Source: an uncultured Alcanivorax sp. (GTDB lineage: Bacteria; Pseudomonadota; Gammaproteobacteria; Pseudomonadales; Alcanivoracaceae). Taken from it: a stretch of 64,000 nt of DNA. The stretch lies in contig NZ_CAMYIV010000011.1 in the NCBI RefSeq assembly GCF_947258575.1, positions 1 to 64,000 of the forward strand. The letters are read 5' to 3'. Shown here in pieces: positions 3,468 to 34,114 of this stretch. The notes under the pieces were generated by a model. That model made no database searches. It saw only the letters and a list, made by a program, of their open reading frames with translations, and had not been told where the DNA came from. Every line of letters starts with the position of its first letter. The stretch's first letter is position 1. The translations under genes and the position numbers were made by a program.

Positions 3468-5114
3468 ATCGGCATTACCGGTAACCGCACACCGCAGGTC
3501 CTGATTGTTGGCGCCGGCCCCACAGGCCTGGCGCTGGGGATCGGCCTGCGTCGACACGGCATTGATTGCTGCATTATCGACCGGCTCGCCGAGCCGTCCC
3601 CCTGGTCCAGGGCCCTGGGGCTACACGCCCGTAGCCTGGAAATTTTTGCTGCCCTGGAAGTGCTGGCACCGATCCGCAAGGCCTCGCGCACCATGCGCGC
3701 CGTGTCTGTCTATGGTGACAAGGGCTTCCTGTTCGAGTTGGATCTGACCAGCCTGGATGCCCCGTATCCCTGGGTGCTGAGCTGCCCCCAGTCCGATGTG
3801 GAAAAAGCCCTGACGGAACGCTATCGAAGTCTTGGTGGCGAGCTGATCCGTGGCACAGAGTTGCTCGATTTTACCCAGGATGGTGCAGGCGTCCGCGCCC
3901 GGATACGGCAAGGTGCCGACGTGGAAACGGTCAGCTGTGATCTGCTTGTCGGCGCAGATGGTGTCGGTTCCACCGTGCGTCAGCAGTTGGGCATCGGCTT
4001 CAATGGCGTCGATTACGACGAACATTTCCTGCTTGCGGATGTGGACTGGCAAGGGCCCTGGCGCAGTGATAGCTCCCATGGCTTTTTGCAGGAGGACGGT
4101 CTGCTGATCGCCTTGCCGTTACCAAAAGGCTGGCGGTTGATCATGGCCAGGGAGCAGGCCTGGGAAGGTGAACTGAGCCTGCAGCCCTTTACCGACCGGC
4201 TGACGTCTATTCTTGGCGAAACGCCGGATCTGGGTGAGCCTCGCTGGATCAGCCGCTTTTCCGTGCAGAGGCGGCTGGCGCATCATTACCGGCGCAACCG
4301 GGTGTTTCTGGCCGGCGATGCCGCCCATGTACAGAGTCCGCTGGGCGCCCAGGGAATGAACACTGGCCTGGCAGATGCCTTTAATCTGAGCTGGAAACTG
4401 GCGTTCTACCTCAAGGGCTATGGCAGCGGTGCCTTGCTCGACAGCTACGAGCAGGAACGCAAACCGGTGGCAGATAAGATGCTGCACGGGGTGGACATGT
4501 TATCGCGGGCCTCGTTGGTGAAGCTGCCCATGCTGCGGCGCACCCGCGACTCCCTGTTGAAAATGGCGGGAGGACGGACCGGTCTGTCCAGGCGCTTGCT
4601 ACGCAGGGCCAGCCAGCTGGATGTGCATTATCGGTCCTCGCCGCTGGTGGGCTGTGGCCCGGAAGCAGAGCTGGGCTGGCGCAATCGGGGACCGTTGCCC
4701 GGTGACCGGCTTCCCGATGCGGCGCTTCGCTCTGTGCGCACTGGCCACCTTCACCAGCTCCATGATCTGTTGCGAAAACCGGTTCATCACCTGTTGCTGC
4801 AACTGGGCGATAACCCCGAGCACAATGAACGGCTGGTGCTGTATGCACTGAGCGATCGTCTTGGTCAGGAATATCGTGAGCGTGTTCACCTGACGGTTAT
4901 CGTGGCCCCTGATACCCCGAGTGAAGAGATCCCCCGGGAGGGCACCACCCGTATTTGGCAGGATCATCAAGGAGAGTTTGGCAAGGCCTTCGGCGACGGG
5001 CCGAGAATGTGGCTGATGCGCCCTGATGGTCATCTGGCCTACCGGGCGCCGGTGAGCAATGCCAACCATCTGCTGGAGTATCTGGATACGGTGCTGGGGA
5101 GAGGTAACAGTTAA
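3468..5114 (+). CDS. FAD-dependent aromatic hydroxylase-type monooxygenase
   Basis: Starting from ATC 3468 this is a 548-residue member of the PHBH/UbiH/TfdB class of flavin monooxygenases, which hydroxylate aromatic or cyclic substrates using NAD(P)H and oxygen. Motifs in order: the Rossmann GxGxxG as VGAGPTGLALG at about 14-24, the DG motif GADGVGS (D164), and the FAD ribityl-binding GD motif AGDAAHVQSPLGAQGMNTG (D284). The last 150 residues resemble the thioredoxin-like C-terminal domain of phenol-hydroxylase relatives. The first ATG in frame is 3660, which would delete the dinucleotide-binding fold, so a start there is not credible. The substrate is unknown. The gene ends inside a repeat array (…RGNS, stop 5112-5114). 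Confidence 0.85.
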   Translation: MGITGNRTPQVLIVGAGPTGLALGIGLRRHGIDCCIIDRLAEPSPWSRALGLHARSLEIFAALEVLAPIRKASRTMRAVSVYGDKGFLFELDLTSLDAPYPWVLSCPQSDVEKALTERYRSLGGELIRGTELLDFTQDGAGVRARIRQGADVETVSCDLLVGADGVGSTVRQQLGIGFNGVDYDEHFLLADVDWQGPWRSDSSHGFLQEDGLLIALPLPKGWRLIMAREQAWEGELSLQPFTDRLTSILGETPDLGEPRWISRFSVQRRLAHHYRRNRVFLAGDAAHVQSPLGAQGMNTGLADAFNLSWKLAFYLKGYGSGALLDSYEQERKPVADKMLHGVDMLSRASLVKLPMLRRTRDSLLKMAGGRTGLSRRLLRRASQLDVHYRSSPLVGCGPEAELGWRNRGPLPGDRLPDAALRSVRTGHLHQLHDLLRKPVHHLLLQLGDNPEHNERLVLYALSDRLGQEYRERVHLTVIVAPDTPSEEIPREGTTRIWQDHQGEFGKAFGDGPRMWLMRPDGHLAYRAPVSNANHLLEYLDTVLGRGNS

Positions 5115-5265
5115 CAGTGAATAGTTAACAGCGACGCGCGCAGTGTCGTTTCTGTTCGTAAACGCAAGAAGCCGCGCCCAGCCTCTGGGCGCGGCTTCTT
5201 TGCTATGAATACAGCAAGCGTTTTCCGCGCAACTGCTCACTATTCACGGTTAACTGTTCACTGCT
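5104..5265. repeat. Gene-end element A (7-nt-unit arrays plus central hairpin)
   Basis: The left array (about 5104-5138) is built from 7-nt units of type AGTKAAY and ends in GACGCG. The right array (5226-5265) is its imperfect inverse. In the middle is a perfect 14-bp hairpin, 5166-5179 with 5187-5200, loop of 7 nt, stem core GAAGCCGCGCCC. It sits between converging genes and supplies the stop codons of both the flavoprotein and rlmA. The T run after the stem is short, so it is only a possible intrinsic terminator. Confidence 0.9.
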
Positions 5266-6065
5266 TTTGTCCATCGCTGAATCACAAAGTGCGCATTCAT
5301 GGCTTTGCCGGCCAGCTTGCCGATACCAGCTTTGGCCTCGGGCTTGGCGCGCCAGTGATGTGGCGTCATGGCCAGCAGGTTTTGTAATTCCTGCTCGTCA
5401 TCGGGAGTCCACTCCAGGTGGATATCCTGGCTATCGATCTGCGTAAAACGTTCATCCAGAAACTTGCCTGCATCGAACCCGGATTGACGAACCTCCTCAT
5501 AGAGGGCTTCGCGCAAGGGCAGTAGATGCTGTTCTCCGGTGCCCACCACAATCAGTTCGCCACCGGGTTTCAGTACCCGGGCAATATCATCGGTGAATAG
5601 CCGTGTGAACAGCACAAAAACGCGCTGCTGGCTGGCGTCGAAGAGAGGCAACCGAGCGCCACTGGCCACCAGCCAGGTCAGTGCCTTGTCCCGCTTGGCG
5701 GCTGCATCCACGGCAAACTTGGAAATATCAACGCCCATGCCGTTGTCGCTTCCCAGCCGTCGGGCGAACTGGCAGGTATACCAGCCTTCTCCGCAACCGA
5801 TATCCAGCCAGGGCTGGTCATCGTCGTCCAGCCCGGCCAGCAGCGCATCGGCGAGGGGCTGATAACGCCCCATTTCCAGAAATGCCGTACGGGCCTGCAC
5901 CATGGCTTTGTCATCACCCGGTGCGCGTGAGCGGCGGTGCTGGGCCAGCAGCAGGTTGGTATAGCCGCGTTTGGCCCGGTCGAAGCGGTGGCTGTTGTCG
6001 CAGAGCCAGCTATTGCCGGTGAGTTGCAGGGGCTGGTCGCAGCTGGGGCATTTGAGGTTGGGCAT
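5250..6065 (-). CDS. rlmA: 23S rRNA (guanine-745-N1)-methyltransferase
   Basis: RlmA methylates G745 in helix 35 of 23S rRNA. The 271-residue protein (E. coli 269) opens with the zinc-binding module: MPNLKCPSC gives C6 and C9, and C22 and H26 complete the site. The stretch RAKRGYTNLLL is typical of the family. The SAM-binding motif I is WLDIGCGEGWY at about 92-102. The C-terminus …KAVNS and its stop are encoded by the right array of element A, so the original end may have been replaced. It stands alone, converging with the flavoprotein gene. Confidence 0.93.
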   Translation of the reverse strand: MPNLKCPSCDQPLQLTGNSWLCDNSHRFDRAKRGYTNLLLAQHRRSRAPGDDKAMVQARTAFLEMGRYQPLADALLAGLDDDDQPWLDIGCGEGWYTCQFARRLGSDNGMGVDISKFAVDAAAKRDKALTWLVASGARLPLFDASQQRVFVLFTRLFTDDIARVLKPGGELIVVGTGEQHLLPLREALYEEVRQSGFDAGKFLDERFTQIDSQDIHLEWTPDDEQELQNLLAMTPHHWRAKPEAKAGIGKLAGKAMNAHFVIQRWTKAVNS

Positions 6066-6140
6066 GGTATGGATGCGACCCGGGAAGGGCGCATTTCACT
6101 GTGGAAGAGGGCTGCATTGTCGCAAATTATCCAGACAATA

Positions 6141-6170
6141 AAAAAGGGCCAGCAACGGCTGGCCCTTTTT
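6141..6170 (-). terminator. Intrinsic terminator of the first GlyGly-CTERM protease gene
   Basis: A 13-bp perfect stem with a 4-nt loop: AAAAAGGGCCAGC at 6141-6153 pairs with 6158-6170. It has A and T tracts on its two flanks, so it can work in either direction. It lies 18 nt past the protease stop on the minus strand. Confidence 0.9.
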
Positions 6171-6187
6171 GTGCTTCCGGTTGATGG

Positions 6188-8014: not shown

Positions 8015-8164
8015 GTGAAATTCCCCAGATGAATCAAAATGCCCAAAAAGCGGCATTCTAGGTGCGGTTAGCGCTGAAAGATGTAGGAAAAACGCCATAC
8101 TTTTTGTAGTCAGCATGACTGGTGTGACGTGCTTCACATTCCTTGTCAGCGTTTCCGAGAGGGG

Positions 8165-10084: not shown

Positions 10085-10300
10085 GGTGTTCTCCCCGGAA
10101 TGATCAGCAAAGCGGGGAGAATATAGGGCGGTGGCAGGGCAAACAAGACTGGGCGGGCTTGCCCACGCAGGGATAACGTCCTTCTCGCGTTTACCGTTTG
10201 AGCGTGACGGAGCATGGCTCGAACATGATTCAGGGTGGCGTTGATGCATGGTAATGTGAGCGCCGAGCCAATTCCTCCGGCTGTTATCAAGGAGCATTCT

Positions 10301-11305: not shown

Positions 11306-11383
11306 CGACAGCGCCAGACTGTGTTGTTGCAAAGCGAATGGTCCTTCGCCTTGTGAAAAAGGCGCCAACAGGACAGGAAGGGG

Positions 11384-13063: not shown

Positions 13064-13133
13064 GACAGCTGCCTTGCACGTTTCCCACCATTTTATCGGC
13101 TTTCACGGCAAGGCAGTGTGAGCTTATGTATCT

Positions 13134-13157
13134 GACCCGAATTCACTAATTCGGGTC
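13134..13157. terminator. Hairpin between protease and membrane protein genes
   Basis: A perfect 10-bp stem (GACCCGAATT pairing with AATTCGGGTC) with a 4-nt loop is followed on the plus strand by TTGTTTT. Both neighbouring genes are on the minus strand, where no T run follows, so action on the upstream minus-strand gene is uncertain. Confidence 0.6.
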
Positions 13158-13176
13158 TTGTTTTGGGGCCTAGGGT

Positions 13177-14118: not shown

Positions 14119-14295
14119 GATTCATCGATCCCCGGTTACTGAGCCGCCTATGTTGCGTCAGGGCCCCCCGGGAATAAAGATGTGATGCACGCTAATCTTG
14201 TTAAAAATGCGTTTTTTTGCGGTTGTCATGGCCAAGTCGAATGTGCTCAGGCATAAATGAAGGCCATACCGTTCGGCAGTTATGAAGGAGCCACA

Positions 14296-16962
14296 GTGGA
14301 TAACAGTGTCAATACGCCCCTGAGAGATGATGTCCGTTTACTGGGGGACTTGCTGGGCGAGTGTCTGCGTCAGCAAGCCGGTGAAGATCTGTATCAGACC
14401 ATCGAAACCATCCGCAAAGCCTCGGTGGCCACCCGCGGCGAGCAGGGAGCCGCATTGTCTTCCCTGCGTGATCTGCTTTCCCCCCTGGATGACGCCACCC
14501 TGCTGGAAGTGGCGCGGGCCTTCAGCCAGTTTCTCAATCTGAGCAACATTGCCGAACAGCATCACCGTGAACGCCTGCACCGTCAGCATCAGCGTTACCC
14601 CGGAGATCCCGGTGGTGATCAGGGGATCGCCAATGTGCTGCAACGCCTGCAACAGGAGCAGATCAGCGCTGATGTGATCGATGGCACCCTGCAAGACCTG
14701 TCCGTGGAGCTGGTGCTCACTGCTCACCCTACCGAAGTGACCCGTCGCACCCTGATCCGCAAATACGACCAGATGGCGGATCTGCTCGGCGAACTGGACC
14801 GGCCGGACCTGACCGATGACGAGCTGGCCTTTCGTCGTGAGAAGCTTTACCGGCTGATCCTGGCTGCCTGGAGCACCGATGAGATCCGCCGCGAACGGCC
14901 CACCCCGGTGGACGAAGCCAAGTGGGGTTTCGCCACCATTGAGCAATCCCTGTGGCAGGCGGTACCGGAAATGGTGCGGCAACTGGAGCGGGAGCTGGCC
15001 GAGCAGGGCCTGCCCCAGCCGCCGGCGGACTGGGCGCCGGTGAAGCTGGCCTCCTGGATGGGCGGCGACCGGGACGGCAACCCCAATGTGACCGCGCCCG
15101 TGACCCGGGAAGTGTTGCTGCTGGCCCGCTGGATGGCCGCGGACCTTTACCTGCGTGACGTGGAAAACCTGCTGGCGGATCTGTCCATGGAAGCCGCCAG
15201 TGAGGAATTGCTGGCAGAAACCGGCCCCAGCCATGAACCCTACCGGGTGATTCTGCGCCAGGTGCGCCAGAGGCTGAAGCTCACCCGGCGGCAGATGGAA
15301 GCCCAGGTAGAGAATCAGCCGGTGCCCGAGGGCGAGGGGTTCCTGCGCCGTGAGCAATTACTGGCCCCCCTGCAACTGATCGACCGTTCCCTGCGTGAGG
15401 TGGGGTTGGGCGATATCGCCGATGGCGATCTGAAAAACACCCTGCGCCGGCTTAATTGCTTCGGCATTACCCTGTTGCGGCTGGATATCCGCCAGGAATC
15501 CACTCGCCATCGCGATGCCGTGGATGCGGTCACCCGTTATCTGGAGCTGGGCAGCTACGCGGACTGGCCGGAGGAGCGCAAGCAGGCGTTCCTGGTGGAG
15601 GAACTCCAGGCTCGCCGTCCACTGATAGATGACAGTTTCCACGCCAGTGAGGCATGCACCGACGAGGTGGCAGAAGTGCTGGCCACCTGCCGGGTGATTG
15701 CCGAGCAGGGCAGTGAAGGGCTGGGTGCCTATGTCATCTCCATGGCCCGTGCCCCCTCGGATGTACTGGCAGTGATGCTGCTGCAGAAAATCGCCGGCGT
15801 CAGCAATCCCATGCGGGTGGTGCCGTTGTTTGAGACCCTGGATGACTTGGACAATGCCGAGGCCACCATGTCGGCCTTGCTAGCGGTGCCGTTCTACCGC
15901 CAGCGAGTGGCCGGGGGCCAGGAAGTGATGATTGGCTATTCTGATTCTGCCAAGGATGCCGGCTTTCTCGGTGCCGCCTGGGCTCAGTACCGCTCCCAGG
16001 AAAAGCTAACCGCCCTGTTTGCCGAGCACAAGATTCCACTGACCCTGTTCCATGGTCGCGGTGGTTCCATCTCGCGGGGTGGTTCGCCTACTCGCATGGC
16101 GTTGCTGTCCCAGCCGCCGGGCTCGGTGGCCGGGCGCATTCGTGTCACCGAACAGGGCGAGGTGATCCGCTTCAAGTACGGTCGCCCGGCGGTGGCCGTG
16201 TTCAACTTGGCGCAATATGTGGCCGCCACCCTGGAAGCGACCCTGTTGCCGCCCCGGGCCGCCAAGCCGCAATGGCGGGAACAGATGCAGACCCTCACCG
16301 ACGTGTCCGTGGCCGGCTACCGCAGCGTAGTGCAGGAAGAGCCGGAGCTGGTGCGCTACCTGCGCACGGTAACCCCGGAAACCGAACTGTCCCGGCTGGC
16401 CCTGGGCAGTCGCCCGGCGCGGCGAAAGCAGGATGCCGGCATCAGCTCCCTGCGGGCTATCCCCTGGGTGTTCGCCTGGACCCAGATCCGCCTGATGCTG
16501 CCCGCCTGGCTGGGCACCGGCGCGGCGCTGGAAGCGGCCCAGGCGGATCCGGCGCAGAGCCGTACCGTGCAGGAAATGGTGGCGCAGTGGCCCTTCTTTC
16601 AGGGTGTGGTGGACATGCTCGAGATGGTGCTGGCCAAGGCGGACCTGCGCGTGGCGGCCTGGTACGAGCAACGCCTGGCCGGGGATGACGCTGATCTGGC
16701 CCGGTTGGGTGAGGTGTTACGCGAGCGACTCACCGGCACGGTGGATGCCCTGTCTGCCCTCACCGGGCGTGAGGATCTGCTGGACAACAACCCGGTGATG
16801 CGCTGGTCCATCCGTGTCCGCGACCCTTACACGGACCCCCTGCACCTGCTCCAGGCAGAACTGATGGCGCGCCTGCGCCAGCAGGATGGCGATAAAGTCC
16901 TGGAAAGCGCCTTGATGGTGACGATTGCGGGTATTGCAGCGGGGCTACGAAACACGGGGTGA
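14296..16962 (+). CDS. ppc: Phosphoenolpyruvate carboxylase
   Basis: Ppc carboxylates PEP to oxaloacetate and feeds the TCA cycle. The start is GTG 14296, with AAGGAG five bases before it, giving 888 residues (E. coli 883). The motif VLTAHPTEVTRRT holds the catalytic His (about H144). FHGRGGSISRGGSPT is the glycine-rich active-site loop. The C-terminus ends RNTG, the family's conserved last residues that enter the allosteric site, so the gene end is intact even though a repeat array begins directly after the stop. An upstream ATG at 14257 has no ribosome site. It is monocistronic, converging with the CDGSH gene. Confidence 0.96.
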   Translation: MDNSVNTPLRDDVRLLGDLLGECLRQQAGEDLYQTIETIRKASVATRGEQGAALSSLRDLLSPLDDATLLEVARAFSQFLNLSNIAEQHHRERLHRQHQRYPGDPGGDQGIANVLQRLQQEQISADVIDGTLQDLSVELVLTAHPTEVTRRTLIRKYDQMADLLGELDRPDLTDDELAFRREKLYRLILAAWSTDEIRRERPTPVDEAKWGFATIEQSLWQAVPEMVRQLERELAEQGLPQPPADWAPVKLASWMGGDRDGNPNVTAPVTREVLLLARWMAADLYLRDVENLLADLSMEAASEELLAETGPSHEPYRVILRQVRQRLKLTRRQMEAQVENQPVPEGEGFLRREQLLAPLQLIDRSLREVGLGDIADGDLKNTLRRLNCFGITLLRLDIRQESTRHRDAVDAVTRYLELGSYADWPEERKQAFLVEELQARRPLIDDSFHASEACTDEVAEVLATCRVIAEQGSEGLGAYVISMARAPSDVLAVMLLQKIAGVSNPMRVVPLFETLDDLDNAEATMSALLAVPFYRQRVAGGQEVMIGYSDSAKDAGFLGAAWAQYRSQEKLTALFAEHKIPLTLFHGRGGSISRGGSPTRMALLSQPPGSVAGRIRVTEQGEVIRFKYGRPAVAVFNLAQYVAATLEATLLPPRAAKPQWREQMQTLTDVSVAGYRSVVQEEPELVRYLRTVTPETELSRLALGSRPARRKQDAGISSLRAIPWVFAWTQIRLMLPAWLGTGAALEAAQADPAQSRTVQEMVAQWPFFQGVVDMLEMVLAKADLRVAAWYEQRLAGDDADLARLGEVLRERLTGTVDALSALTGREDLLDNNPVMRWSIRVRDPYTDPLHLLQAELMARLRQQDGDKVLESALMVTIAGIAAGLRNTG

Positions 16963-17132
16963 AAACAGTGAACAGTGAATAGTGAATAGTTAACAGTGAC
17001 GCGAATGGACGCGTCCCAAGCTGCAAGCGGAGAGGCCGCGCTCATACATTGGGCGCGGCCTCTCCGCTTTCTGATTCAGACATTTCTATTTCGCGCCGCT
17101 GTTACTTGTTCATTGTTCACTATTCACTATCT
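16963..17132. repeat. Gene-end element B (7-nt-unit arrays plus central hairpin)
   Basis: The left array (16963-17003) follows the ppc stop at once, has four AGTKAAY units and ends in GACGCG. The hairpin 17027-17043 / 17051-17067 is 17 bp with one G-U pair on the plus strand and a 7-nt loop. The right array (about 17091-17132) has four inverse units and runs into the CDGSH gene, encoding its last residues. It lies between converging genes. Confidence 0.9.
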
Positions 17133-17364
17133 TCGAATGGCTGCCATCACAAACCGGCCCCTTGCCGCTGTGCTTGCAGCCGCAGAAGAACACGATCTTG
17201 TCCCGTGGGGCGGTGTAGGCCACCGGGGTGATGCCGGTGCCTTTGTGGCTGCCATCACAGTACGGCTGATTCTCGCTGCGGCCACAGGCACACCAAAACA
17301 CCTTTTCCCCTTTCTTCACCGGCAACGGGTAGGGAAACCGGGAAGCAATGACAGGCTTGTCCAT
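17110..17364 (-). CDS. Small CDGSH iron-sulfur protein with two motifs
   Basis: This 84-residue protein starts at ATG 17362-17364 with GGAGAG seven bases upstream. Two CDGSH-type [2Fe-2S] sites are complete: C25, C27, C36 and H40 ([16 protein letters not shown]), then C61, C63, C72 and H76 ([16 protein letters not shown]). Each coordinates a cluster by three Cys and one His. Bacterial tandem CDGSH proteins are soluble and of uncertain redox function. The last residues (…KIVNSEQ) and the stop are encoded by the right array of element B, so the native tail has probably been replaced or extended. Confidence 0.92.
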
Positions 17365-17469
17365 AGGGTCTCTCCTTTTCAAAAATGGCCGGGGCGTTGT
17401 AATTGCTACGCGCATTGCGGCGGGATCGCGCCTCCCTATTCACCCCGGAATGTCGCTCCCCCGCCTTTG

Positions 17470-17548
17470 CGCGCGGTCTCATGCGTTTCAGCAGCCACAG
17501 TGCCACTTCCGCGCAACTATTAACTATTCACTGTTAACTATTAACTGC
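17470..17548. repeat. Right half of a gene-end element (remnant C)
   Basis: Only the right side remains: a degraded hairpin arm (about 17470-17492, GCGCGGTCTCATGCGTTTCA, compare CGCGGCCTCTTGCGTTTCA in element E) and then a full right array, 17510-17548. Read as reverse complement, this array is identical over about 39 nt to the left array of element E at 25743. It lies in the divergent gap between the CDGSH gene and olsB, an exception to the gene-end placement. Confidence 0.75.
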
Positions 17549-17639
17549 CTTTAACCCCTGTCGCACAAATGTCACTCAAATGTCACTGCTGTGCCACGTC
17601 CACTGGCGAAACTGCCCGAAACTGCCAGTGGAGTACACT

Positions 17640-18494
17640 ATGCTTGCGCAAGCCGCAGGAAAGATCAAAGCCCTTAGCCCCCACTTAAGAGGGGCCCTGG
17701 CCAAGCCGTTTACGGCCACTGCCGATATTCTCCGTTTCCCCAGGGACATGACGGCGGATGCGGAAAATGCTGGACGGTTCAGTGCCTACTTCACCCGCTC
17801 CCGACGGGAAATCATCAAGGTCCAGCGTCTGCGCTACCGTATTTTCTCCCAGGAATACGGCGCCAGTTTCAGTGCTCCCTTCGGGCTGGATCGGGACCGC
17901 TTTGATAAGCACTGTCTGCACCTGGTGGTGCGCGATAACCAGAGCGGCGAGATCGTCGGGTACACCCGGGTGTTGCCCGGTGAGCGCCTGCATCGCACCG
18001 GCGGTTTCTATTCCAGCGGCGAATTCGATCTGTCCATGCTGCGCCATCTGGATGGCCGGGTGGCAGAGATCGGCCGCACCTGCATTCATCCCGCCCACCG
18101 CAGCGGTGCCGTGATCACCGTGCTGTGGGCGCGGTTGGCCCAATACATGCTCGAAAACGATGTGCGCTACCTGCTGGGCTGCGCCAGCATTGCCCTGAGT
18201 GAGGGCTACAACGTGGCCGCCATTCAGCAGCGCATCAACCAGCGTCACCTGAGCGAGCCGGCACTGCGGGTGCAGCCGCACCTGCGTCTGGAGCGCCTGC
18301 CGGGCAATGCCGACGACGAGAGCGTGAAAATGCCGCCGTTGCTCAAGGCCTACCTGCGCATGGGCGCCCGGGTCTGTGGCGAGCCCTGCTGGGACCCGGA
18401 TTTCAACTGCCTGGATTTCTTCGTGCTGATGGCGGTGGATGACCTACCGGCCCGTTATGTGCAGCACTTCCTGCAGCCCGCCCAGGCGGTTTAA
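17640..18494 (+). CDS. olsB: OlsB-type GNAT acyltransferase (ornithine lipid synthesis, first step)
   Basis: The 284-residue protein starts at ATG 17640 with GTGGAG at six bases. It belongs to the hemolysin/OlsB GNAT group that transfers 3-hydroxyacyl groups from ACP to the alpha-amino group of ornithine, making lyso-ornithine lipid. Seen in it: KVQRLRYRIFSQEYGA, the family opening of the GNAT fold; VAEIGRTCIHPAHRSG; and LLGCASIAL further on. A plsC-like olsA gene lies 123 bp downstream on the same strand, the partner needed for the second acylation, which supports the role. The two are separated by a strong hairpin repeat, unusual inside an operon. The specific acceptor is inferred from family and neighbour. 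Confidence 0.82.
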   Translation: MLAQAAGKIKALSPHLRGALAKPFTATADILRFPRDMTADAENAGRFSAYFTRSRREIIKVQRLRYRIFSQEYGASFSAPFGLDRDRFDKHCLHLVVRDNQSGEIVGYTRVLPGERLHRTGGFYSSGEFDLSMLRHLDGRVAEIGRTCIHPAHRSGAVITVLWARLAQYMLENDVRYLLGCASIALSEGYNVAAIQQRINQRHLSEPALRVQPHLRLERLPGNADDESVKMPPLLKAYLRMGARVCGEPCWDPDFNCLDFFVLMAVDDLPARYVQHFLQPAQAV

Positions 18495-18510
18495 CGACCA
18501 TCGTTTTCCC

Positions 18511-18584: not shown

Positions 18585-18617
18585 GGGGCCTATACGATTC
18601 GGCTCAGGCTCTGAACT

Positions 18618-19412
18618 ATGAGTGAAATGAACGATAGCGTCAGCGTCAGTCCTGATATGCAAAGCGGCCTCTGGCCGCAACTGCGCAGGGTGCTACGGGT
18701 TGCCCGCATCGTGCTTTATCTGCTGTGGGGTTTTGTGCTGGCATTTTTGCTGGGGGCGTTCTGGTCGCCTTATCGGCCGGTGGTGCTGGTGGCCAAGCAG
18801 CGTTGGTGTCGTCGCTTTCTGCGCATCCTCGGCGTGGAACTGACCGTCACCGGCACCCCGGTCGACGCCCCGGTGTTTCTGGTCAGCAATCATGTGTCCT
18901 GGCTGGATATTCCGTTGATCGCCAGCCAGCGCCATCTGTATTTCCTTTCCAAGGCGGAAGTGGGGGATTGGCCGTTAATCGGCACCCTGGCCCGGGCCAT
19001 GGGTACCCTGTTTATCAAGCGGGGCAGCGGTGAGTCCAGCCGCAAGGCCCGGGAAATTGCCGACCGCTTGAAGCAGGGCCACACCGTACTGGTGTTCCCG
19101 GAAGGCACCACCACCGACGGCACCAGCCTGCGCCGTTTCTTCCCACAGCTGTTCGATGCGCCGCTGATGGCCGATGTGCCGGTACAACCCCTGGCGGTGC
19201 GCTACCTGGATGACAGCGGCGCCCCGGATGCCGCCATGGCCTTCATCGGCGACGACGAATTCCACCACCACCTGTGGGCCATGCTGCTGCGCAATCGCAT
19301 CCGCGTGCGCCTGCACTTCTGCGAACCGCTATCGGCACAGGGCACGGATCGGAAGGGGTTGTGTGAGGGGGCGTGGGGTAAGGTGGCGGAGCAGTTAACA
19401 GTGAATAGTTAA
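18618..19412 (+). CDS. olsA: OlsA-type 1-acyl-glycerol-phosphate acyltransferase family protein
   Basis: This 264-residue protein of the PlsC family has a hydrophobic segment at about 30-50, the acyltransferase motif I NHVSWLD (catalytic H-x4-D), KRGSGE (motif II region) and FPEGTTT (motif III). Its place after olsB suggests it acylates lyso-ornithine lipid; ordinary lysophosphatidate acylation is the alternative, and both activities can coexist. The C-terminus …EQLTVNS and the stop codon come from the left array of element D. The family does not require those residues, so function is probably kept. Confidence 0.82.
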   Translation: MSEMNDSVSVSPDMQSGLWPQLRRVLRVARIVLYLLWGFVLAFLLGAFWSPYRPVVLVAKQRWCRRFLRILGVELTVTGTPVDAPVFLVSNHVSWLDIPLIASQRHLYFLSKAEVGDWPLIGTLARAMGTLFIKRGSGESSRKAREIADRLKQGHTVLVFPEGTTTDGTSLRRFFPQLFDAPLMADVPVQPLAVRYLDDSGAPDAAMAFIGDDEFHHHLWAMLLRNRIRVRLHFCEPLSAQGTDRKGLCEGAWGKVAEQLTVNS

Positions 19413-19549
19413 CAGCGTCGCGAATTGGGCCGTCATGGTTTCCAAGCGCAAGAGGCCGCGCCTGCATGTTGGGCGCGGCCTCTTGCGTTTGAAAACCCGA
19501 AGAGCTGCTTTCGCGCCGCTGTTAACTATTCACTATTCACTGTTAACTG
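19392..19549. repeat. Gene-end element D (7-nt-unit arrays plus central hairpin)
   Basis: The left array (19392-19422) has three AGTKAAY units and contains the olsA stop. The hairpin 19447-19463 / 19471-19487 is 17 bp with one G-U pair on the plus strand, a 7-nt loop and weaker pairing beyond to about 25 bp. The right array (19512-19549) has four units. Here both neighbours point the same way (olsA and efpL), so the element sits in a tandem junction. Confidence 0.9.
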
Positions 19550-19592
19550 GCTAGCATCGCCCTTTCCAACACATCAAGGATCTCCCCCAACC

Positions 19593-20159: not shown

Positions 20160-20168
20160 TCCCGGATC

Positions 20169-22024: not shown

Positions 22025-22075
22025 GTTACCCCGGTCGTACTGCTATAAAGACTGCCAAAACAAATGATCACAATC

Positions 22076-22948: not shown

Positions 22949-22956
22949 GAGTACTT

Positions 22957-23946: not shown

Positions 23947-24452
23947 TGGCGGCCTTGTTACACCGGCTCCACCGTACCCTTCACCAAATCGAGGACGGCC
24001 TGATCGTGGCCGTCCTTTTGTTTATGGTGCTGCTGGCGGTGGCCCAGATCGTGCTGCGTAATTTCTTTGGTACCAGCCTGGTATGGATTGAGCCGCTACT
24101 GCAGAACGCGGTGCTGTGGATCGGCCTGCTCGGCGCCATGATCGCCTCGCGCAATGATGAACACATCCGTATCGATGTGGCCTCGTCGCTGCTGCCGGAA
24201 AAATACCATCCTTTCCTCACCACCGTTGTGGACCTGTTCACCGCCTTTATCTGTGTACTGGTGGCCTGGTACAGCGTGGGGTTCGTGATCGAGGAATACG
24301 ACTACGCCGGGGCGGCCTTTGCCAATGTGCCGAGCTGGCTGCTGCAGAGCATTATTCCGGTGGGTTTCTCGGTGATGGCCCTGCGTTATGTGGTGCTGTT
24401 TGCGCTGGGCTTGCTGGGTAAACGGCCGAAGATGCAGGAGCCGGTGCCATGA
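23946..24452 (+). CDS. dctQ: TRAP transporter small permease (DctQ)
   Basis: 168 residues with four predicted membrane helices (about 18-38, 50-70, 90-112, 132-152), the DctQ pattern. The motif NAVLWIGLLGAMIASRNDEH (loop after helix 2, acidic and His) is characteristic. The start overlaps the dctP stop by one base (TAATG) and the end overlaps dctM by ATGA, so the three are translationally coupled. Confidence 0.92.
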   Translation: MAALLHRLHRTLHQIEDGLIVAVLLFMVLLAVAQIVLRNFFGTSLVWIEPLLQNAVLWIGLLGAMIASRNDEHIRIDVASSLLPEKYHPFLTTVVDLFTAFICVLVAWYSVGFVIEEYDYAGAAFANVPSWLLQSIIPVGFSVMALRYVVLFALGLLGKRPKMQEPVP

Positions 24453-25738
24453 TTACCGTCGCCATTATCCTGTTGGTGTTGCTGGCGCTGATGGGCGCCC
24501 CCCTGTTTGCGATCATTCTCGGCGCGGCGGCCCTGGGTTTTTATACCCTGGGCATCGAAATGTCGGTGCTGCATATCGACATCTATCAGCTCAGTAATTC
24601 CGTGGTGCTGATGGCGCTGCCGCTGTTCACCTTTGCCGGTTTCCTGCTCAGTGAATCGAAAACCGCCGACCGCATGCTACGCCTCAGCCAGGCGGCCTTC
24701 GGCTGGATGCCCGGCGGTATGGCCTTTGTGTCGCTGATCGCCTGCGCCTTCTTTACTGCCCTGACCGGTGGCTCCGGGGTCACCATCGTGGCGCTGGGTG
24801 CGCTGCTGTTGCCGGCGCTGGTAAAAGGCAATTACCCGGAAAAATTCAGCCTGGGTCTGGTGACGTCATCAGGTAGCCTGGGGCTGCTGCTGGTGCCTTC
24901 CGTGCCGTTGTTGATCTACGGCATCATCGCCCAGCAGATGTCCCAGCAACTGGACATGCCGTCGGTGGAAATCGTCGATTTGTATCTGGCCGGCCTGGTG
25001 CCGGCGCTGCTGATGGTTGTGCTGATGTACGGCTATTGTGTGTGGGCGACGCGCGGCACCACCGTGCCGCGACAGAGTTTCGATTTCCGTGAACTGGTGG
25101 ATGCCCTCTGGGAAGCCCGCTGGGAGCTGCCGCTGCCGCTGGTGGTGCTGGGCGGGATCTTCTCCGGCTTTCTGGTGATCAGTGAGGCGGCAGCGGTGAC
25201 GGCACTCTATGTGCTGGTGGCGGAAGTGTTCCTGTATCGGGAAATTACCCTGCGCAAGCTGCCAGGCATCATGCGTGATTCCATGATCATGGTGGGGGGG
25301 ATCCTGCTGATTTTGGCGGTGGCCCTGGCCTTTACCGATTACCTGGTTTACGCCGGGGTGCCGGAGAAGCTGTTCACCCTGATCCAGACCCACGTGGAGA
25401 GCAAGATCACCTTCCTGATCCTGCTCAACATCCTGCTGCTGTTGCTGGGGGCGGTGCTGGATATCTTTGCGGCCCTGGTGATCATGGTGCCGCTGATCCT
25501 GCCGGTGGCGCTGCGCTACGGTATCGACCCGGTGCATCTGGGGATCATCTTCGTGGCCAACATGCAGATCGGCTACATCACCCCGCCGGTGGGCATGAAC
25601 CTGTTCATCGCCAGCTACCGGTTCAAGAAGAAAGTCACCGAGCTGTTTGCGGCGACGTTGCCCTTCATGATGGTGCTGATCATCGCCTTGTTGATGATTA
25701 CCTATATCCCGCAGCTCAGCCTCTGGTTAGTGCGGTAA
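24449..25738 (+). CDS. dctM: TRAP transporter large permease (DctM)
   Basis: 429 residues with about 12 membrane helices and the DctM signatures: FFTALTGGSGVTIVALGALL (first re-entrant hairpin), LLVPSVPLLIYGI and, in the second half, IGYITPPVGMNLFI. Na+-driven import of the substrate is the family role. It begins at the ATGA overlap with dctQ and is the last gene of the operon; element E follows its stop by 4 nt. Confidence 0.94.
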   Translation: MITVAIILLVLLALMGAPLFAIILGAAALGFYTLGIEMSVLHIDIYQLSNSVVLMALPLFTFAGFLLSESKTADRMLRLSQAAFGWMPGGMAFVSLIACAFFTALTGGSGVTIVALGALLLPALVKGNYPEKFSLGLVTSSGSLGLLLVPSVPLLIYGIIAQQMSQQLDMPSVEIVDLYLAGLVPALLMVVLMYGYCVWATRGTTVPRQSFDFRELVDALWEARWELPLPLVVLGGIFSGFLVISEAAAVTALYVLVAEVFLYREITLRKLPGIMRDSMIMVGGILLILAVALAFTDYLVYAGVPEKLFTLIQTHVESKITFLILLNILLLLLGAVLDIFAALVIMVPLILPVALRYGIDPVHLGIIFVANMQIGYITPPVGMNLFIASYRFKKKVTELFAATLPFMMVLIIALLMITYIPQLSLWLVR

Positions 25739-25742
25739 AAGG

Positions 25743-25850
25743 CAGTTAATAGTTAACAGTGAATAGTTAATAGTTGCGCGGTCAGCGGTTGTTGATTGCT
25801 GGAATCGAGGAGGCCGCGTTCATTATCTGGACGCGGCCTCTTGCGTTTCA
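25743..25850. repeat. Gene-end element E (left array and hairpin only)
   Basis: The left array (25743-25780) has four 7-nt units and ends in TTGCGCG; the hairpin is 25810-25821 / 25829-25840 with a 7-nt loop and a G-U pair on the plus strand. No right array follows; the NYN gene end is reached instead. The array is the exact counterpart of remnant C's right array. Confidence 0.85.
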
Positions 25851-25872
25851 GCTGGTTGGTGAAGAAAAAACG

Positions 25873-26634
25873 TTATTTTCGTAGCGTTTTTACCTGAATG
25901 CTTTTGCCTTGCCCTTTTTGTATCTGGAACCACTTGGGGTAGGCGCGGATCATGTCGCTGAGTTTCTTGTGGCCAAACAGGCGGGTGTCGAAATCCGGTT
26001 TGCGCTTGCTCAGGTGCTGGCCCACGGTGCCCAGGTTGGCCCAGTCATCTTCGTCGGAAATGTCGTCGATCACGTTGGCAATCAGCTGCAGCGGGGGCGG
26101 TTCCTTGCTGACCGGTTCGCTGGGGGCAGGCTCATCGGTTTTGCCGGCGGTGTCTTGCGGGGTGTCCGAACGCAATACCTCGGTATAGATGAACTTGTCA
26201 CAGGCGGCTACAAAGGGGCCCGGGGTTTTGCGTTCCCCGAAGCCGTAAACGGTCTGCCCCTCTTCGCGCAATCTGGCCGCCAGACGGGTGAAATCGCTGT
26301 CGCTGGATACCAGACAGAACCCGGACAGTTGTTTCGTGTACAGCAGATCCATGGCATCGATGATCATGCTGCAGTCCGTGGCGTTCTTGCCCTGGGTGTA
26401 GGCGAACTGCTGGATCGGTTGTACGGAGTGTTTCAGCAGTACGTTCTTCCAGCCACCCAGGTTGGGTTTGGTCCAGTCGCCATAGATGCGCTTGACGCTG
26501 GCAGTGCCGAATTTGGCAATTTCCTCGAACAGGCCATCGACGATTTTCGGGGGCGTATTGTCTGCGTCGATCAGCACCGCCAGCGAGGTGCTGCTGATAA
26601 CGGAAGAGTCCGTGTCACTGTTGCTGCCTGCCAT
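25873..26634 (-). CDS. NYN-domain nuclease with C-terminal LOTUS/OST-HTH domain
   Basis: The 253-residue protein resembles LabA/DUF88-type NYN proteins. The PIN-like NYN fold has acidic catalytic residues in LIDADN (D23, D25), GKNATDCSMIIDAMD and SSDSDFT. A proline-rich linker (about 165-180) leads to an OST-HTH/LOTUS RNA-binding module at about 183-253, with DWANLGTVGQHLSKRKPDFD and LSDMIRAYPKWFQI. Such proteins are thought to be RNA-directed endonucleases; the target is unknown. AAAGGA precedes the ATG by 8-9 bases. It converges with the TRAP operon. Confidence 0.9.
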   Translation of the reverse strand: MAGSNSDTDSSVISSTSLAVLIDADNTPPKIVDGLFEEIAKFGTASVKRIYGDWTKPNLGGWKNVLLKHSVQPIQQFAYTQGKNATDCSMIIDAMDLLYTKQLSGFCLVSSDSDFTRLAARLREEGQTVYGFGERKTPGPFVAACDKFIYTEVLRSDTPQDTAGKTDEPAPSEPVSKEPPPLQLIANVIDDISDEDDWANLGTVGQHLSKRKPDFDTRLFGHKKLSDMIRAYPKWFQIQKGQGKSIQVKTLRK

Positions 26635-26687
26635 GATGCATTCCTTTTGCGTGGAATACCGTCAACATAACGGATTCGGTGGGGTAG

Positions 26688-26854
26688 AGTTAACAGTTAA
26701 TAGTGAATAGTTAACAGCGTCGCGAGATAGTGTTTTCCTGGTTTCAAACGAAAGAGGCCGCGGCCAAGTGATGGGCGCGGCCTCTTCGCTTTCAGAAAAA
26801 AACATGCTGCTGGTACGCGTAGCTGTTAACTATTCACTATTAACTGTTAACTGC
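26688..26854. repeat. Gene-end element F (7-nt-unit arrays plus central hairpin)
   Basis: The best-matched pair of arrays. The left (26688-26725) and right (about 26813-26854) each have four units in the same order and are nearly perfect inverses. The hairpin 26752-26765 / 26773-26786 is 14 bp with one mismatch and a 7-nt loop. The right array encodes the last residues and stop of the SDR gene. It lies in a tandem minus-strand junction, upstream of the NYN gene's promoter. Confidence 0.92.
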
Positions 26855-27646
26855 TTTCACCGATTTTCGGTAGACAAAATTGGCCATGGCGCGCAAAGGC
26901 ATTATTCGGATCCAGATGCTTTGCAGGGTCACGGACAGGCCGGGGAGGGCGTAGCGCTTGCCCTTGTTGAGGGCCGCGTAGCCGGCTTTGGCCACCGCTT
27001 CCGGGGTGGCGATTTGTGCCGAGACAAATTCTCTGATGCCGCTGGAGGAGGTGTGTTGGCTCTGGGCGGTATCCAGAAAGGCTGTCCTGGTGGTGCTGGG
27101 GCAGAAGCAGGTGACCTGCACGCCATAGGGTTTCAGCTCTTCGTGCAGGGAGGCGCTGAAGTTGATCACGAAAGCCTTGCTGGCGCTGTAGGCAGCGAAG
27201 AAGGGCATGGGGCAGAAGCCGGCCAGTGAACCGATGTTCATGATCTTGCCGTGGCCACGGGCCTTCATGCGCGCGCCCAACAGCATGCATAGCTTGCTGA
27301 GCGGGATGTTGTTGAGGGTGAGCATGCGCTCCAGTGTCTGGCTGTCCTGTTCCACGTGCTCGCCCATCATGCCGAAGCCCACGTTATTGACCAGTACGTC
27401 CACGTCCAGCTGTTGCTGGTCCAGCCACTGCATGATCGCTTCGGCGGCACCGGGTTGGGACAGGTCCATCTGCACGGCATGGTATTCCACATCAGGGCGT
27501 TGCGCCTTCAGATCGTTGCCAAGCGCGTCCAGTTCCTCCTGCAGCAGGCTGAACACCACGATGCGATAGCCGTCCGCGTTGAACAGCTTGCAGAATTCCC
27601 GACCAATGCCGCCGGCGCCGCCGGTGATCAGAACGGTTCTTGTCAT
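26840..27646 (-). CDS. Short-chain dehydrogenase/reductase
   Basis: This 268-residue classical SDR starts at ATG 27644-27646 with AGGAG upstream. It shows TGGAGGIG (the NAD(P) glycine motif TGxxxGIG, residues 8-15), NNVG (structural motif), and the catalytic YSASK with the Ser in IGSLAGF. It probably reduces or oxidises a lipid-type alcohol or ketone: it is 13 bp downstream of a desaturase in the same operon, under the AraC gene. The last residues …KAVNS are encoded by the right array of element F. Confidence 0.9.
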   Translation of the reverse strand: MTRTVLITGGAGGIGREFCKLFNADGYRIVVFSLLQEELDALGNDLKAQRPDVEYHAVQMDLSQPGAAEAIMQWLDQQQLDVDVLVNNVGFGMMGEHVEQDSQTLERMLTLNNIPLSKLCMLLGARMKARGHGKIMNIGSLAGFCPMPFFAAYSASKAFVINFSASLHEELKPYGVQVTCFCPSTTRTAFLDTAQSQHTSSSGIREFVSAQIATPEAVAKAGYAALNKGKRYALPGLSVTLQSIWIRIMPLRAMANFVYRKSVKAVNS

Positions 27647-27659
27647 GGAGGTTCTCCTG

Positions 27660-28541
27660 TCAGGCGTTGCCGGGGTTGTCGTCGGGGCCAAGCTGGAACG
27701 GGCGGATAATCATGCTGCCGGAATGCGCGCGGTGATATTGCTCACGGGCCTTCCAGGCCTTGCCGTAGCGGTAGAAGGGAATGGTCGGGTAGAGGTGATG
27801 GATCAGGTGATAGTTCTGATACATCAATACCGGCGTTAGCAGCCATTCCTTGCCCATGCGCATCAGCGCGGTGGTGTGCGGGTCCACGTCCTGGCGACCG
27901 GTGTGCGGGTAGTGGGGCAATACCATGAACACCAGGCACATCAGGTAGAAGGAAAAATAGGACGGGATTAGCCACAGCATCATGGCTTCATAGGGGCGCC
28001 AGAGAAACAGGGCGGTGAGCGCCACGCCGGCTACGGCCAGTTCCCGCCAGATTTCTGCGGGTTTCACATTGGGCAGCACCTGCGGATTGCGCAGGAAGTT
28101 GATCAGATAGAGGAAGGGCCAGAAGCCCCACAGGGGCATGGTCCACAGGCTGCTGGCCATCCAGTGATCCGGATCTTTCTGCGGATCATTGGCAAAGCGG
28201 TGATGGCGCATGTGCATCAGCCGGAACATCTTGCCCTTGCCGAACGGCACCGCCACAAAGGTGGCAATGGCGAGGACCAGGTCGTTGTGCTCGGGCTTGC
28301 GGGCGGCACAGCGGTGGATGGCTTCATGGGCTGGTGTGAACATCACATAGCCGGCGATGCTGTTGATGACCAGGCCCACCCAGGCAGGCCAGAGGCCGTT
28401 GAGCACCATCACCCAACTGAGGATGTTGGCCCCGTGGGACAGCACCATGAGGGTCACGGTGGGCCAGGCGATCCGGGGGGATACCTTGAGCCGGCTCAGG
28501 GTCTTCAGTTCGTCGTGTTGCGGGGCGGTTGTCGTTGTCAT
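27660..28541 (-). CDS. Membrane fatty acid desaturase / hydroxylase family protein
   Basis: A 293-residue inner-membrane di-iron enzyme with three histidine boxes: HEAIH, HMRHH and HLIHH. About four to five membrane helices. It belongs to the FA_desaturase superfamily that includes acyl-lipid desaturases and carotenoid hydroxylases; box spacing alone does not tell the substrate. With the downstream SDR (13 bp gap) it forms a two-gene unit, and an AraC-type gene lies 128 bp upstream on the same strand. AGGAG lies at the start. Likely substrates are membrane fatty acids or their derivatives (inference). Confidence 0.87.
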   Translation of the reverse strand: MTTTTAPQHDELKTLSRLKVSPRIAWPTVTLMVLSHGANILSWVMVLNGLWPAWVGLVINSIAGYVMFTPAHEAIHRCAARKPEHNDLVLAIATFVAVPFGKGKMFRLMHMRHHRFANDPQKDPDHWMASSLWTMPLWGFWPFLYLINFLRNPQVLPNVKPAEIWRELAVAGVALTALFLWRPYEAMMLWLIPSYFSFYLMCLVFMVLPHYPHTGRQDVDPHTTALMRMGKEWLLTPVLMYQNYHLIHHLYPTIPFYRYGKAWKAREQYHRAHSGSMIIRPFQLGPDDNPGNA

Positions 28542-28669
28542 GGGCGCTCTCCTGCAAGATGCTGAAACAGAGTGTTTACTTTTTGCAGGGCGAAGATAAG
28601 AGCGGAAAATGCCAACAGGGGGATAAATAATGACAATTATCAGGCGCAGAGGTGAGGAACTACGGAACC

Positions 28670-29671: not shown

Positions 29672-29794
29672 GGTCGAGCGGGTCCTGTGCGGTGGTGGTG
29701 ATGCGGAACTGAGGAGAAATAGATAGTCGCACCTGGGTTTCGGGCAGGCAATGACAGAACCGCGTGGCTCATTGAGCGGCAGATCAAGGCAGAC

Positions 29795-29960
29795 AAAAAA
29801 ACGGCCGTCAGGGGTGACGGCCTAAGGGGGGGAAGCATGAACCCTCACGGGTTCCGGGTATCTCTATCTCAGAATCAACGCATGGATGTCTGTTCGGACG
29901 GCGATGGCGCCATCCGATAGGTACACAATAGCGACAGGCGCGGGGAGAACCCAGAAGGCT
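29795..29960 (-). ncRNA. Candidate small RNA or long 3' UTR with strong terminator
   Basis: Between the GNAT gene and the AraC gene the minus strand has no good ORF, but ends in a textbook terminator: stem GGCCGTCA / TGACGGCC (29803-29810 / 29815-29822) with a U7 run encoded at 29795-29801. Two further hairpins lie upstream: GAACCC/GGGTTC (29839-29854) and a perfect palindrome GATGGCGCCATC (29903-29914). The stretch starts about 190 nt after the GNAT stop, too far for a simple terminator. I cannot identify a promoter with confidence and the 5' end is a guess. It may be an sRNA or the processed 3' end of the GNAT mRNA. Confidence 0.35.
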
Positions 29961-30014
29961 GGATTGAGCGATGTGATCAGATTTTTCGATCAATTAGAGG
30001 GTTTGGGGCGGATT

Positions 30015-30608
30015 TCAGACCAGTGACTTGCGCATGGCATGGCGAGTGAGCGTGATGCCGTCCCGGTCTGCCTGTTCCTGGCCTTCGCTGGCAAACCCCA
30101 TATAGGCAAAGAAATCGTGGGCGGTGAGGCTGGCGTGGGTGGTCAGTTCGGTGATGCCCTCGATGCGGGCGCCGTCTTCCAGGTGCTGGTAGAGGAGGGT
30201 GGCGATGCCCACCCGGGAGGCCTCCGGGTGCACGAACACCATGTTGATGTAATCGCGAATGCGGTGGGCAAACCCCACCAGCTTGTCGTCCCATTCCGCC
30301 ACCACGGTATCGCCTTCGCTGAGTACCGAGATCAGGCTGTCGTAGCTTTGAGCCCGGCTCCAGGCATCCCGTTGCTGCTGGTCATAATCATCCGCCGCAC
30401 TGACCTGGATGGCCTCGCGGAACACGCCCAGCAGCTCGGCCATGTCCTTGCTGTCCAGGGGGCGTATCTGGAAGGGCATGAGGGCCGCGATGGGATCCGG
30501 CTCCGACGCGCGGGGAGCGGGTTCCGGCTCAGGCTGAGCGGCGGAGTGGGCCGGGGCCTCCGGTTGAACGGGGGTGCGGTGAAAAAGCTGGCGTAGCCAT
30601 TGCAACAT
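30015..30608 (-). CDS. GNAT-family N-acetyltransferase
   Basis: 197 residues from ATG 30606-30608, whose A overlaps the TGA of the upstream gene (TGATG). A Pro/Glu-rich linker (about 12-40) precedes the GNAT domain. The acetyl-CoA pyrophosphate loop is in MVFVHPEASRVGIATLLYQH (R/Q-x-x-G-x-G/A type) and the end has HDFFAYMGFASEGQ. It resembles YafP/ElaA-like acetyltransferases; the acceptor is unknown. It is co-translated with the small coiled-coil protein. Confidence 0.85.
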   Translation of the reverse strand: MLQWLRQLFHRTPVQPEAPAHSAAQPEPEPAPRASEPDPIAALMPFQIRPLDSKDMAELLGVFREAIQVSAADDYDQQQRDAWSRAQSYDSLISVLSEGDTVVAEWDDKLVGFAHRIRDYINMVFVHPEASRVGIATLLYQHLEDGARIEGITELTTHASLTAHDFFAYMGFASEGQEQADRDGITLTRHAMRKSLV

Positions 30609-30886
30609 CACTGATCTGCCTGGGCAGTGTTATCTGCCTCTTCTGAGAGTTTTTTGAGTGCCTGGATTTCTTGCTGTAGCGCGTCCAGGTACTGGTCCTG
30701 TTGGCGGAGAAGTTGTTGCGCTGTGTCCTGGCGATCTTGTAATTCTGCCGCCCGCTCTGACAATTCCTGCTGTTCACGCAGGCGAGCGTCGCGCTCCTCT
30801 TCCGTGAGCAGACGGGCGTTGCTGTCCTGCTCGGCAAACAAAGTGCCGGACAGGATCAGCGCGGTAGCAGCAAACAGGTAACGCAC
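30608..30886 (-). CDS. Small exported coiled-coil protein (92 aa)
   Basis: Starts at GTG 30884-30886 after GGGGGAA. A signal peptide (MRYLFAATALILSGTLFA) is followed by an almost continuous charged heptad-rich coiled coil (residues 25-90, rich in E, Q, R, L), without cysteine. I do not recognise the family. It is likely periplasmic. It is translationally coupled to the GNAT gene (TGATG). Confidence 0.75.
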   Translation of the reverse strand: MRYLFAATALILSGTLFAEQDSNARLLTEEERDARLREQQELSERAAELQDRQDTAQQLLRQQDQYLDALQQEIQALKKLSEEADNTAQADQ

Positions 30887-31021
30887 GGACTTCCCCCAAA
30901 CTGGCCGTGAAGGGAATCAGCATAGCAAAAACGGGGCGCCAAGGGGGAGGGCTAGCTACGCTCGACAGGATAGGGAAAGGGTGGAGGGTTCCCCGGATCC
31001 CGTCATTTCTACGAAGCCGCT

Positions 31022-31247
31022 TGTAGGAGCTATGCTTGTCCCCCAGGGGATCTGCGACATGCGAACCGCGCTTGCGCGGAAATCGACCGCAGGGCGATCA
31101 GGAATCTCAGAGCTCGACAGGTTCCAGAAAGAACGGCGGACAGACCTTTGCCTCTGTCGCCTCGCGACGCTCGGTTCGCACCTCAAGCGGTGCTCCTACG
31201 GGGCGGGGTAGAGCGGTGCAGTTCGCCTGAGGCTCAGTGCACCCTAC
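31022..31247. repeat. Composite REP region
   Basis: The 483 bp between the coiled-coil gene and acnA hold no convincing gene. GTAGGAGC at 31022-31029 and its inverse GCTCCTAC at 31192-31199 bracket about 160 bp, with the REP-like words TTCGCACCTCAAGCGGTGC. Then comes one arm (31215-31247, GGTGCAGTTCGCCTGAGG…) of the repeat that is a full inverted pair at 44135-44216. Confidence 0.65.
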
Positions 31248-31263
31248 GGTGGGGCCACAAATG

Positions 31264-31369
31264 CAGGAGGCCGCGTCCGGTGTTCGGGCGCGGCCTCCTG
31301 GGTCAGAGCAAGCGACACGGCTTGCCCGCGTTCCTGCTCGCAGCTAGCAGCTCGAAGCTAGCCGCTTCT
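31264..31369. repeat. Gene-end element I (GCTAGC-type array with shared hairpin)
   Basis: The hairpin 31264-31278 / 31286-31300 (GGAGGCCGCG core, one G-U pair on the plus strand, 7-nt loop) is the same as in elements A-F. Downstream, 31335-31366 is an array of 7-nt units of the GCTAGC type seen at 1-177, followed directly by the acnA stop. So the central hairpin occurs with two different array families. A left array is not apparent. Confidence 0.8.

Positions 31370-34114
<2,745 letters not shown>

Follow-up and report, generated by a model that had tools for sequence, protein, structure and literature searches.

The first 64,000 nucleotides of contig NZ_CAMYIV010000011.1 (contig C11 of assembly GCF_947258575.1, an uncultured Alcanivorax sp. 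with a genome of 3.5 Mb, here G000), hereafter called the window, contain several copies of a module of about 160 bases, in which a strong hairpin stands between two mirrored arms of 7-base units (AGTKAAY) at the ends of genes. In the assembled sequences of related species, orthologous junctions had modules with like arms but with cores of opposite orientation, and different cores or arm dialects occupied the same slot. Core inversion and turnover at fixed slots are new with respect to an earlier note, written from the sequence of the window alone, which had described an element dispersed over gene ends and built on one plan; that interpretation was supported by our results, and the observation as a whole was partly confirmed. 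In the reading that we favour, and to which we give about even chances, the modules are hairpins at gene ends, and template switching from one mirrored arm to the other turns their cores around.

Core inversion between like arms

The comparison covered 132 full AGTKAAY elements from seven genomes, matched by both flanks; slots with another dialect or no element stood outside the counts. Among the 115 junction pairs, 39 displayed the same core orientation, 18 an inverted core and 58 another core (i.e. the core hit stayed below 100 bits or 80 nt). Inverted cores were encountered in 18 of the 57 species pairs with alignable cores and in 10 of the 41 junction groups; a looser cut gave 23 inversions and another comparison at 100 bits gave 15 out of 42. 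Pairs G000/G004 (19 same, 5 inverted), G013/G015 (9 and 1) and G006/G009 (2 and 3) displayed both states. The clearest case (locus L382 in G006 and L403 in G009) combined flanks 98 and 99% identical with a core identical at 105 of 105 positions yet reversed. Its left arm and the 30 nt outside each arm were identical as well, and the right arm of G009 was two units longer. One four-species group shared its orientation within G013/G015 and within G006/G009 and was opposite between those pairs; in the other four-species group, G006 and G009 were in opposite orientation. The fit of the arms in 15 inverted pairs was better in place for six, better swapped for two and tied for seven.

The modules resemble invertons in carrying invertible DNA between inverted repeats, a feature seen here between species (18/57) rather than within a culture and for which an artefact may still be responsible. 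A dedicated invertase recognising the arms and flipping the core would turn them into a large phase-variable family, and could draw on the frequency of inverted groups, on arms that mostly stay in place and on a CGCG box whose position is constant among 115 of 144 arm ends. Yet no invertase gene was identified, none having been searched for, and, unlike in invertons, the scan recorded no promoter-like match inside four full copies of the window (A, B, D and F, listed below), therefore no obvious switch. The unit order of the arms is also variable, and typical recombination sites do not vary in unit order. Site-specific recombination is quite improbable.

According to template switching, the reading favoured here, a non-coding, dispersed and quasi-palindromic gene-end module would consist of two half-units (heptameric arm, CGCG box, spacer and hairpin half) joined head to head in a GC-rich hairpin. 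A replicating strand would change template between the mirrored arms and leave the core inverted, the strong hairpin bringing the arms effectively nearer to each other. The hairpin would also end or protect transcripts from both sides, and the module would therefore be tolerated or useful at gene ends; we likewise infer the means by which modules spread. A comparable process is described in excerpts of PMC8604942, where template switching between short inverted repeats homogenises the arms and inverts the spacer, although at single loci of yeast coding sequence instead of in a dispersed family. Arms of the Alcanivorax modules were somewhat homogenised within elements: the two arms of a given element agreed in 133 of 342 units, versus 106.9 +/- 9.0 when permuted within the genome (8 of 4000 permutations reached the observed number), and in a test of arm likeness counted from the inner edge 37 of 4000 permutations reached the observed value.

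Several points weigh against template switching. The spacers in the excerpts of PMC8604942 span only 2-5 bp, compared with cores of about 105 nt here. A first test of arm symmetry, on 17 elements, was not significant, and comparisons of this kind would not separate template switching from recombination by RecA or a dedicated enzyme. As to the hairpin, a simple terminator scan flagged none of those of elements A-F or I for a U run directly after the stem. Junction pairs are not independent, one or more multi-contig draft genomes take part in every inverted pair, and the only pairs between closed genomes (G004 and G013, both single contigs) gave another core in five of five cases and no inversion. 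Wrongly oriented draft contigs could thus still be a source of inversions, which is the main weakness of this reading.

Another alternative sees no coherent element at all, only slippage arrays beside ordinary terminators, the inversions being assembly artefacts. The draft genomes involved in inversions are in its favour, as are some right arms of G006, G013 and G015, which are long uniform CACTGTT runs likely produced by slippage. It is at odds with the first four-species group above, where orientation agreed within two genome pairs and differed between them. Likewise, 11 of the 13 hairpins recorded in 404 kb of G000 lay within 160 nt of AGTKAAY arrays (the twelfth had AGTTGAC arms), 30 of the 44 full cores measured 102-109 nt, and uniform arrays without T/G mixing numbered 5 of 144, versus 19.5 by chance, the opposite of slippage. 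We regard this alternative as unlikely. Slippage as the origin of the Alcanivorax arms was rejected, since T/G mixing above chance contradicts it.

Composition of the modules

Sixty elements were recorded in the stretches of G000 examined: 44 full, 13 plus-halves and 3 minus-halves. The consensus of 30 aligned copies is composed of an arm, AG, the CGCG box, a variable spacer, GAAACGCAAGAGGCCGCGCCCA, about 5 nt and the mirror image. The GC stem was nearly invariant among copies. Changes on both sides were seen in some copy at 8 of the 38 predicted pairs (3 in arms, 5 in the hairpin), with a small covariation term of -0.44 kcal/mol. A few cores were wholly different, e.g. a T-tailed hairpin in L291 and another one at position 160,690 of C11.

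Arm statistics were drawn from 144 arms, orthologues included. The heptamers, summed up by the consensus AGTKAAY in the earlier note, proved not to be interchangeable: T or G at position 4 varies with the number of the unit, in the order T-T-G-T (chi-square 93.6). Position 5 was uniform in 143 arrays versus 105.6 expected, and the dialects AGTKAAY (124 arms), AATKAAY (9), AGTKGAY (9) and AATKGAY (2) could be distinguished. The arms are thus defined sequences existing in dialects. Stop codons in three frames were considered as the cause of the unit order and rejected: all frames were stopped by 103 arms versus about 33 for letter-shuffled ones, but a random order of units did so in 118.4 +/- 4.4 arms, none of 500 permutations being as low as the natural order, which is worse than random. 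Units devoid of stops were not clearly depleted either (2 versus 4.0 expected in G000, 5 versus 6.0 in G016). Three-frame stops are kept here as a tolerated feature of the arms, not as the cause of their order. A second class of 7-nt-periodic repeats (CGAGTTA CGAGAAG CGAGTTT CGAAAGG-like units with an inverted partner) was observed in some of the same gene ends (L115, L116, L118, L120 and other junction loci).

Location at gene ends

Gene context was established from codon-scored gene calls, with both neighbours called for 37 of the 44 full copies. These were convergent in 23 cases, tandem in 12 and divergent in 2, an enrichment (p 5e-11) over the baseline of 41 convergent among 280 adjacent pairs. 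Wherever the 3' end of a gene faced an arm (64 cases), it fell within -15 to +20 nt of the outer edge of that arm, in 38 cases with the stop codon inside the arm, which bears out the location at gene ends first proposed. No full copy was found inside a called gene; the called start of the gene following element D overlaps that element.

A bidirectional role of the hairpin at gene ends is suggested by its position and stability. The GC-rich hairpin of an intrinsic terminator is present, with z values of -5.6 to -10.1 over ten folds (both strands of A, B, D, F and I), and T-rich letters sit within the lower stem. Because the terminator scan does not flag the element hairpins, transcript protection is as likely as termination.

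Copies in the window

Positions are those of the window.

Element A, full, 5109-5262: the left arm (5109-5129) and a degenerate right arm (about 5230-5262) enclose the hairpin (about 5168-5201); it stands between genes for an FAD-binding hydroxylase (3660-5114, +) and an RlmA-like methyltransferase (5250-6065, -), whose stop codons are both in the arms.
Element B, full, 16967-17128: the left arm (16967-16994) and the right arm (about 17100-17128) enclose the hairpin (about 17025-17069); preceded by a PEP carboxylase gene (14257-16962, +) and followed by a CDGSH-type gene (17110-17415, -).
Element C, right half only, 17469-17546: hairpin half and arm 17519-17546, located upstream of an acetyltransferase-like gene (17580-18494, +).
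Element D, full, 19393-19548: arms 19393-19413 and 19521-19548, hairpin about 19448-19487; the stop of an acyltransferase gene (18618-19412, +) lies inside the left arm and the next called gene is also + (tandem).
Element E, partial, 25744-25845: arm 25744-25771 and whole hairpin about 25807-25843, no right arm; preceded by a DctM transporter gene (24449-25738, +) and followed by an NYN/LOTUS gene (25873-26634, -).
Element F, full, 26688-26852: arms 26688-26715 and 26825-26852, sharing one unit order, with the hairpin between them at about 26751-26790; a short-chain dehydrogenase gene (26840-27691, -) has its stop codon inside the right arm.
Hairpin I, 31264-31299: related GC hairpin lacking heptamer arms, at the 3' end of a gene (31370-34210, -).

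Double-heptamer matches numbered 24 in the window, while 100 dinucleotide shuffles gave a mean and a maximum of 0, and the inverted AGTKAAY arrays announced for A, B, D and F were all recovered on re-reading the sequence. Both C and E, initially taken for half elements, do have a single array; C is indeed a right half, but E, with its arm and whole hairpin, is not a half. Hairpin I had been presented as a relative of the elements: the hairpin is in place, but the heptamer array is missing, both in the window and in its copy in G004. A loop of invariably 7 nt had also been put forward and was not retained, the minimum-energy loops on the two strands being 3/3 in A, 5/5 in B, 7/9 in D, 5/5 in F and 5/5 in I. 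What the sequence shows to be constant in A, B, D, F and I is instead the distance from CGCGNN to GGGCGCG, which is 8 nt; element E carries GGACGCG where the others have GGGCGCG.

Relative to G000, the cores of A and F were inverted in G004, the arms being alike in both cases, and the orientation of B was unchanged there. Element C was present in the same half form in G004 and G016. This element lies between the divergent CDGSH-type and acetyltransferase-like genes, and the same half was retained across several species.

Turnover at fixed slots

The slot at position 104,657 of C11 was occupied by an AGTKAAY element in G000, AATTAAT in G004 and AGTTGAC in G016, both arms being of one dialect in each genome. 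The same slot displayed AGTKAAY in G006 versus AATTAAT in G009, despite a 3.8-kb query 94% identical overall. In G006, this element and its next neighbour, 2.2 kb away, share a spacer: the left one of the former is identical to the right one of the latter in inverted form, the mates being 0.56 alike, so that one half-unit was copied inverted from that slot. One half was kept in 30 of 108 pairs; only strong half-exchange cases count, because about one unrelated pair in eight would share a half by chance (four comparisons, 3.4% each).

Uneven core identity was also encountered. Three G000/G004 pairs (L260/L442, L262/L439 and L266/L437) displayed cores 100% identical within flanks only 90.6-93.5% identical, other cores being about 84% identical. 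Such unevenness may reflect either uneven ages or exchange between species. A slower evolution of spacers than of flanks was unsupported (mean 89.8 versus 90.2, p 0.97; the spacer had the higher value in 12 of 21 comparisons).

Replacement of elements recalls bacterial miniature inverted-repeat transposable elements (MITEs), which are likewise short, non-coding and multicopy with terminal inverted repeats (conserved arms, and 44 full of 60 copies, in the present case). The arms would then be terminal inverted repeats bound by a putative transposase that inserts copies at gene ends, and inverted or exchanged cores would stem from excision and re-insertion. Arms of defined sequence, with their T-T-G-T order and coherent dialects, agree with this, as do the whole-slot dialect change and the state of junction A, which among the 15 genomes with both flanks had an element in nine, none in five and a remnant in one. 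Unlike in MITEs, however, neither a parent transposon nor recent copies were seen, and cores inverted between fixed arms (these remained in place in six of the eight decidable inverted pairs). Element-free junctions differed by other sequence too, and no clean target duplication was visible by eye at junction A and the dialect-exchange junctions. No arm-bracketed gene was found in the stretches examined. Finally, the best paralogous cores of G000 were only 87.6% identical, hence no recent burst there, and no recent transposition was evident among the 45 cores compared. A miniature transposon is rather unlikely in our opinion.

Distribution and relationship to other repeats

The earlier note had anticipated that the element would be dispersed beyond the window. 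Three consecutive AGTKAAY units were indeed matched 135 + 120 = 255 times in G000, overlapping matches included (reversed control 0). Several of these can come from one copy, and a rough estimate of the copy number is about 100. Of 17 congeneric genomes, 15 contained the same pattern, the number of hits ranging from 1 to 368, and G001 and G002 had none. A wider pattern (three ARTKRAY units followed by A) was present in all 17, from 2 hits (G001, one array) to 427, with 0-16 in the reversed control. In a class-wide sample, 5 of 369 genomes matched, including G000 itself; the matches listed for three others were uniform AGTGAAT arrays.

The family matched no described repeat family among those searched. 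Rfam returned no family at gathering score, and searches of plasmids and of phages, with one element each, gave no match. Fourteen viral-contig stretches (L423-L436) carry an arm-like pattern of four heptamers. An exact-sequence search of open-licence papers did not find the element sequences printed in any bacterial one, and the passages on the topic from the highest-ranked open-licence papers describe no such element, which does not in itself show absence from print.

Repetitive extragenic palindromic (REP) sequences and bacterial interspersed mosaic elements (BIMEs), mobilised by REP-associated tyrosine transposases (RAYTs), are among the closest known systems. In the parts of PMC2817692 that concern them, they are short palindromic high-copy repeats outside genes in inverted arrangement; unlike them, the modules have heptameric arms and a fixed two-half plan, and the consensus of 30 copies lacks a GTAG/GTGG head. 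A REP/BIME-type origin could account for high-copy hairpins at gene ends, and Y1_Tnp genes occurred in 16 of the 17 genomes, absent only from G001, which has a single array. Yet ARTKRAY arrays were found in none of 25 stretches around Y1_Tnp genes (part of 60 hits), 17 of which carried GTRGGAGC REP-like matches instead. RAYTs as direct movers of the modules were rejected on this count, and true GTAG REPs coexist with the modules in the same genomes. Such an origin is highly improbable. REP-like palindromes of the GTAGGAGC type were common in the genus (window 31150-31210 and Y1_Tnp loci L337-L362) and stood beside REP-type transposase genes in those 17 stretches.

Outside the genus, four consecutive AGTKAAY units, scanned in one genome per species, were found in at least 120 stretches; the matches listed include some Alcanivorax, Bacteroidota, Cyanobacteria, Acidobacteria, Planctomycetes, Clostridia, Campylobacterota and others. 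For the 109 arrays with enough flank among those stretches, an inverted partner, allowing up to 2 mismatches in 15, lay within 400 nt downstream in 49 and upstream in 3, versus 0 after shuffling. Cores differ, e.g. the AGTTATGGTGTCCGC type in Ruminococcus, and a shared plan rather than one homologous family is claimed here. The gene-end bias across phyla was only marginal: of 97 arrays, six Alcanivorax-type loci being excluded, 48 had the 3' end of a gene as neighbour on their 5' side, 29 the 5' end of one and 16 no neighbour, and 4 lay inside a gene (p 0.04). Clostridial loci L181, L194, L219 and L235 displayed inverted AGTKAAY arrays followed by AGTTAWGGTGTCNGC hairpins, as one shared family.

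Another 7-nt repeat, TAACTGA, was described from Beggiatoaceae, Cyanobacteria and Bacteroidetes and is likewise intergenic and patchy over phyla (PMC4679880, in excerpts). As portrayed there, it is direct, with one indirect repeat only, lies mostly just upstream of start codons and provides stops in all frames in one direction. In contrast, the ARTKRAY units of the modules form inverted pairs around a hairpin at gene 3' ends, 23 of 37 full copies being convergent. A broader view, which we put forward tentatively, is that the Alcanivorax modules may form a combinatorial system, with half-units passing by copying from slot to slot, arm dialects competing for the same gene ends and cores flipping frequently enough to randomise their orientation in part across the genus, and may belong to a widespread class of heptamer-armed gene-end modules in several phyla.

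Significance

The modules constitute a natural test bed for genome rearrangement by short mirrored repeats. Since like arms are found at many parallel slots and the orientation of each core can be read, the rate and the rules of inversion between short inverted repeats could be measured in nature, from species to species. Distant phyla share the plan of inverted AGTKAAY arrays around a core, as well as its fixed polarity, and one may ask why a single 7-nt unit has come up repeatedly. Should the hairpins end transcription, the modules would be exchangeable and evolving gene-end parts.

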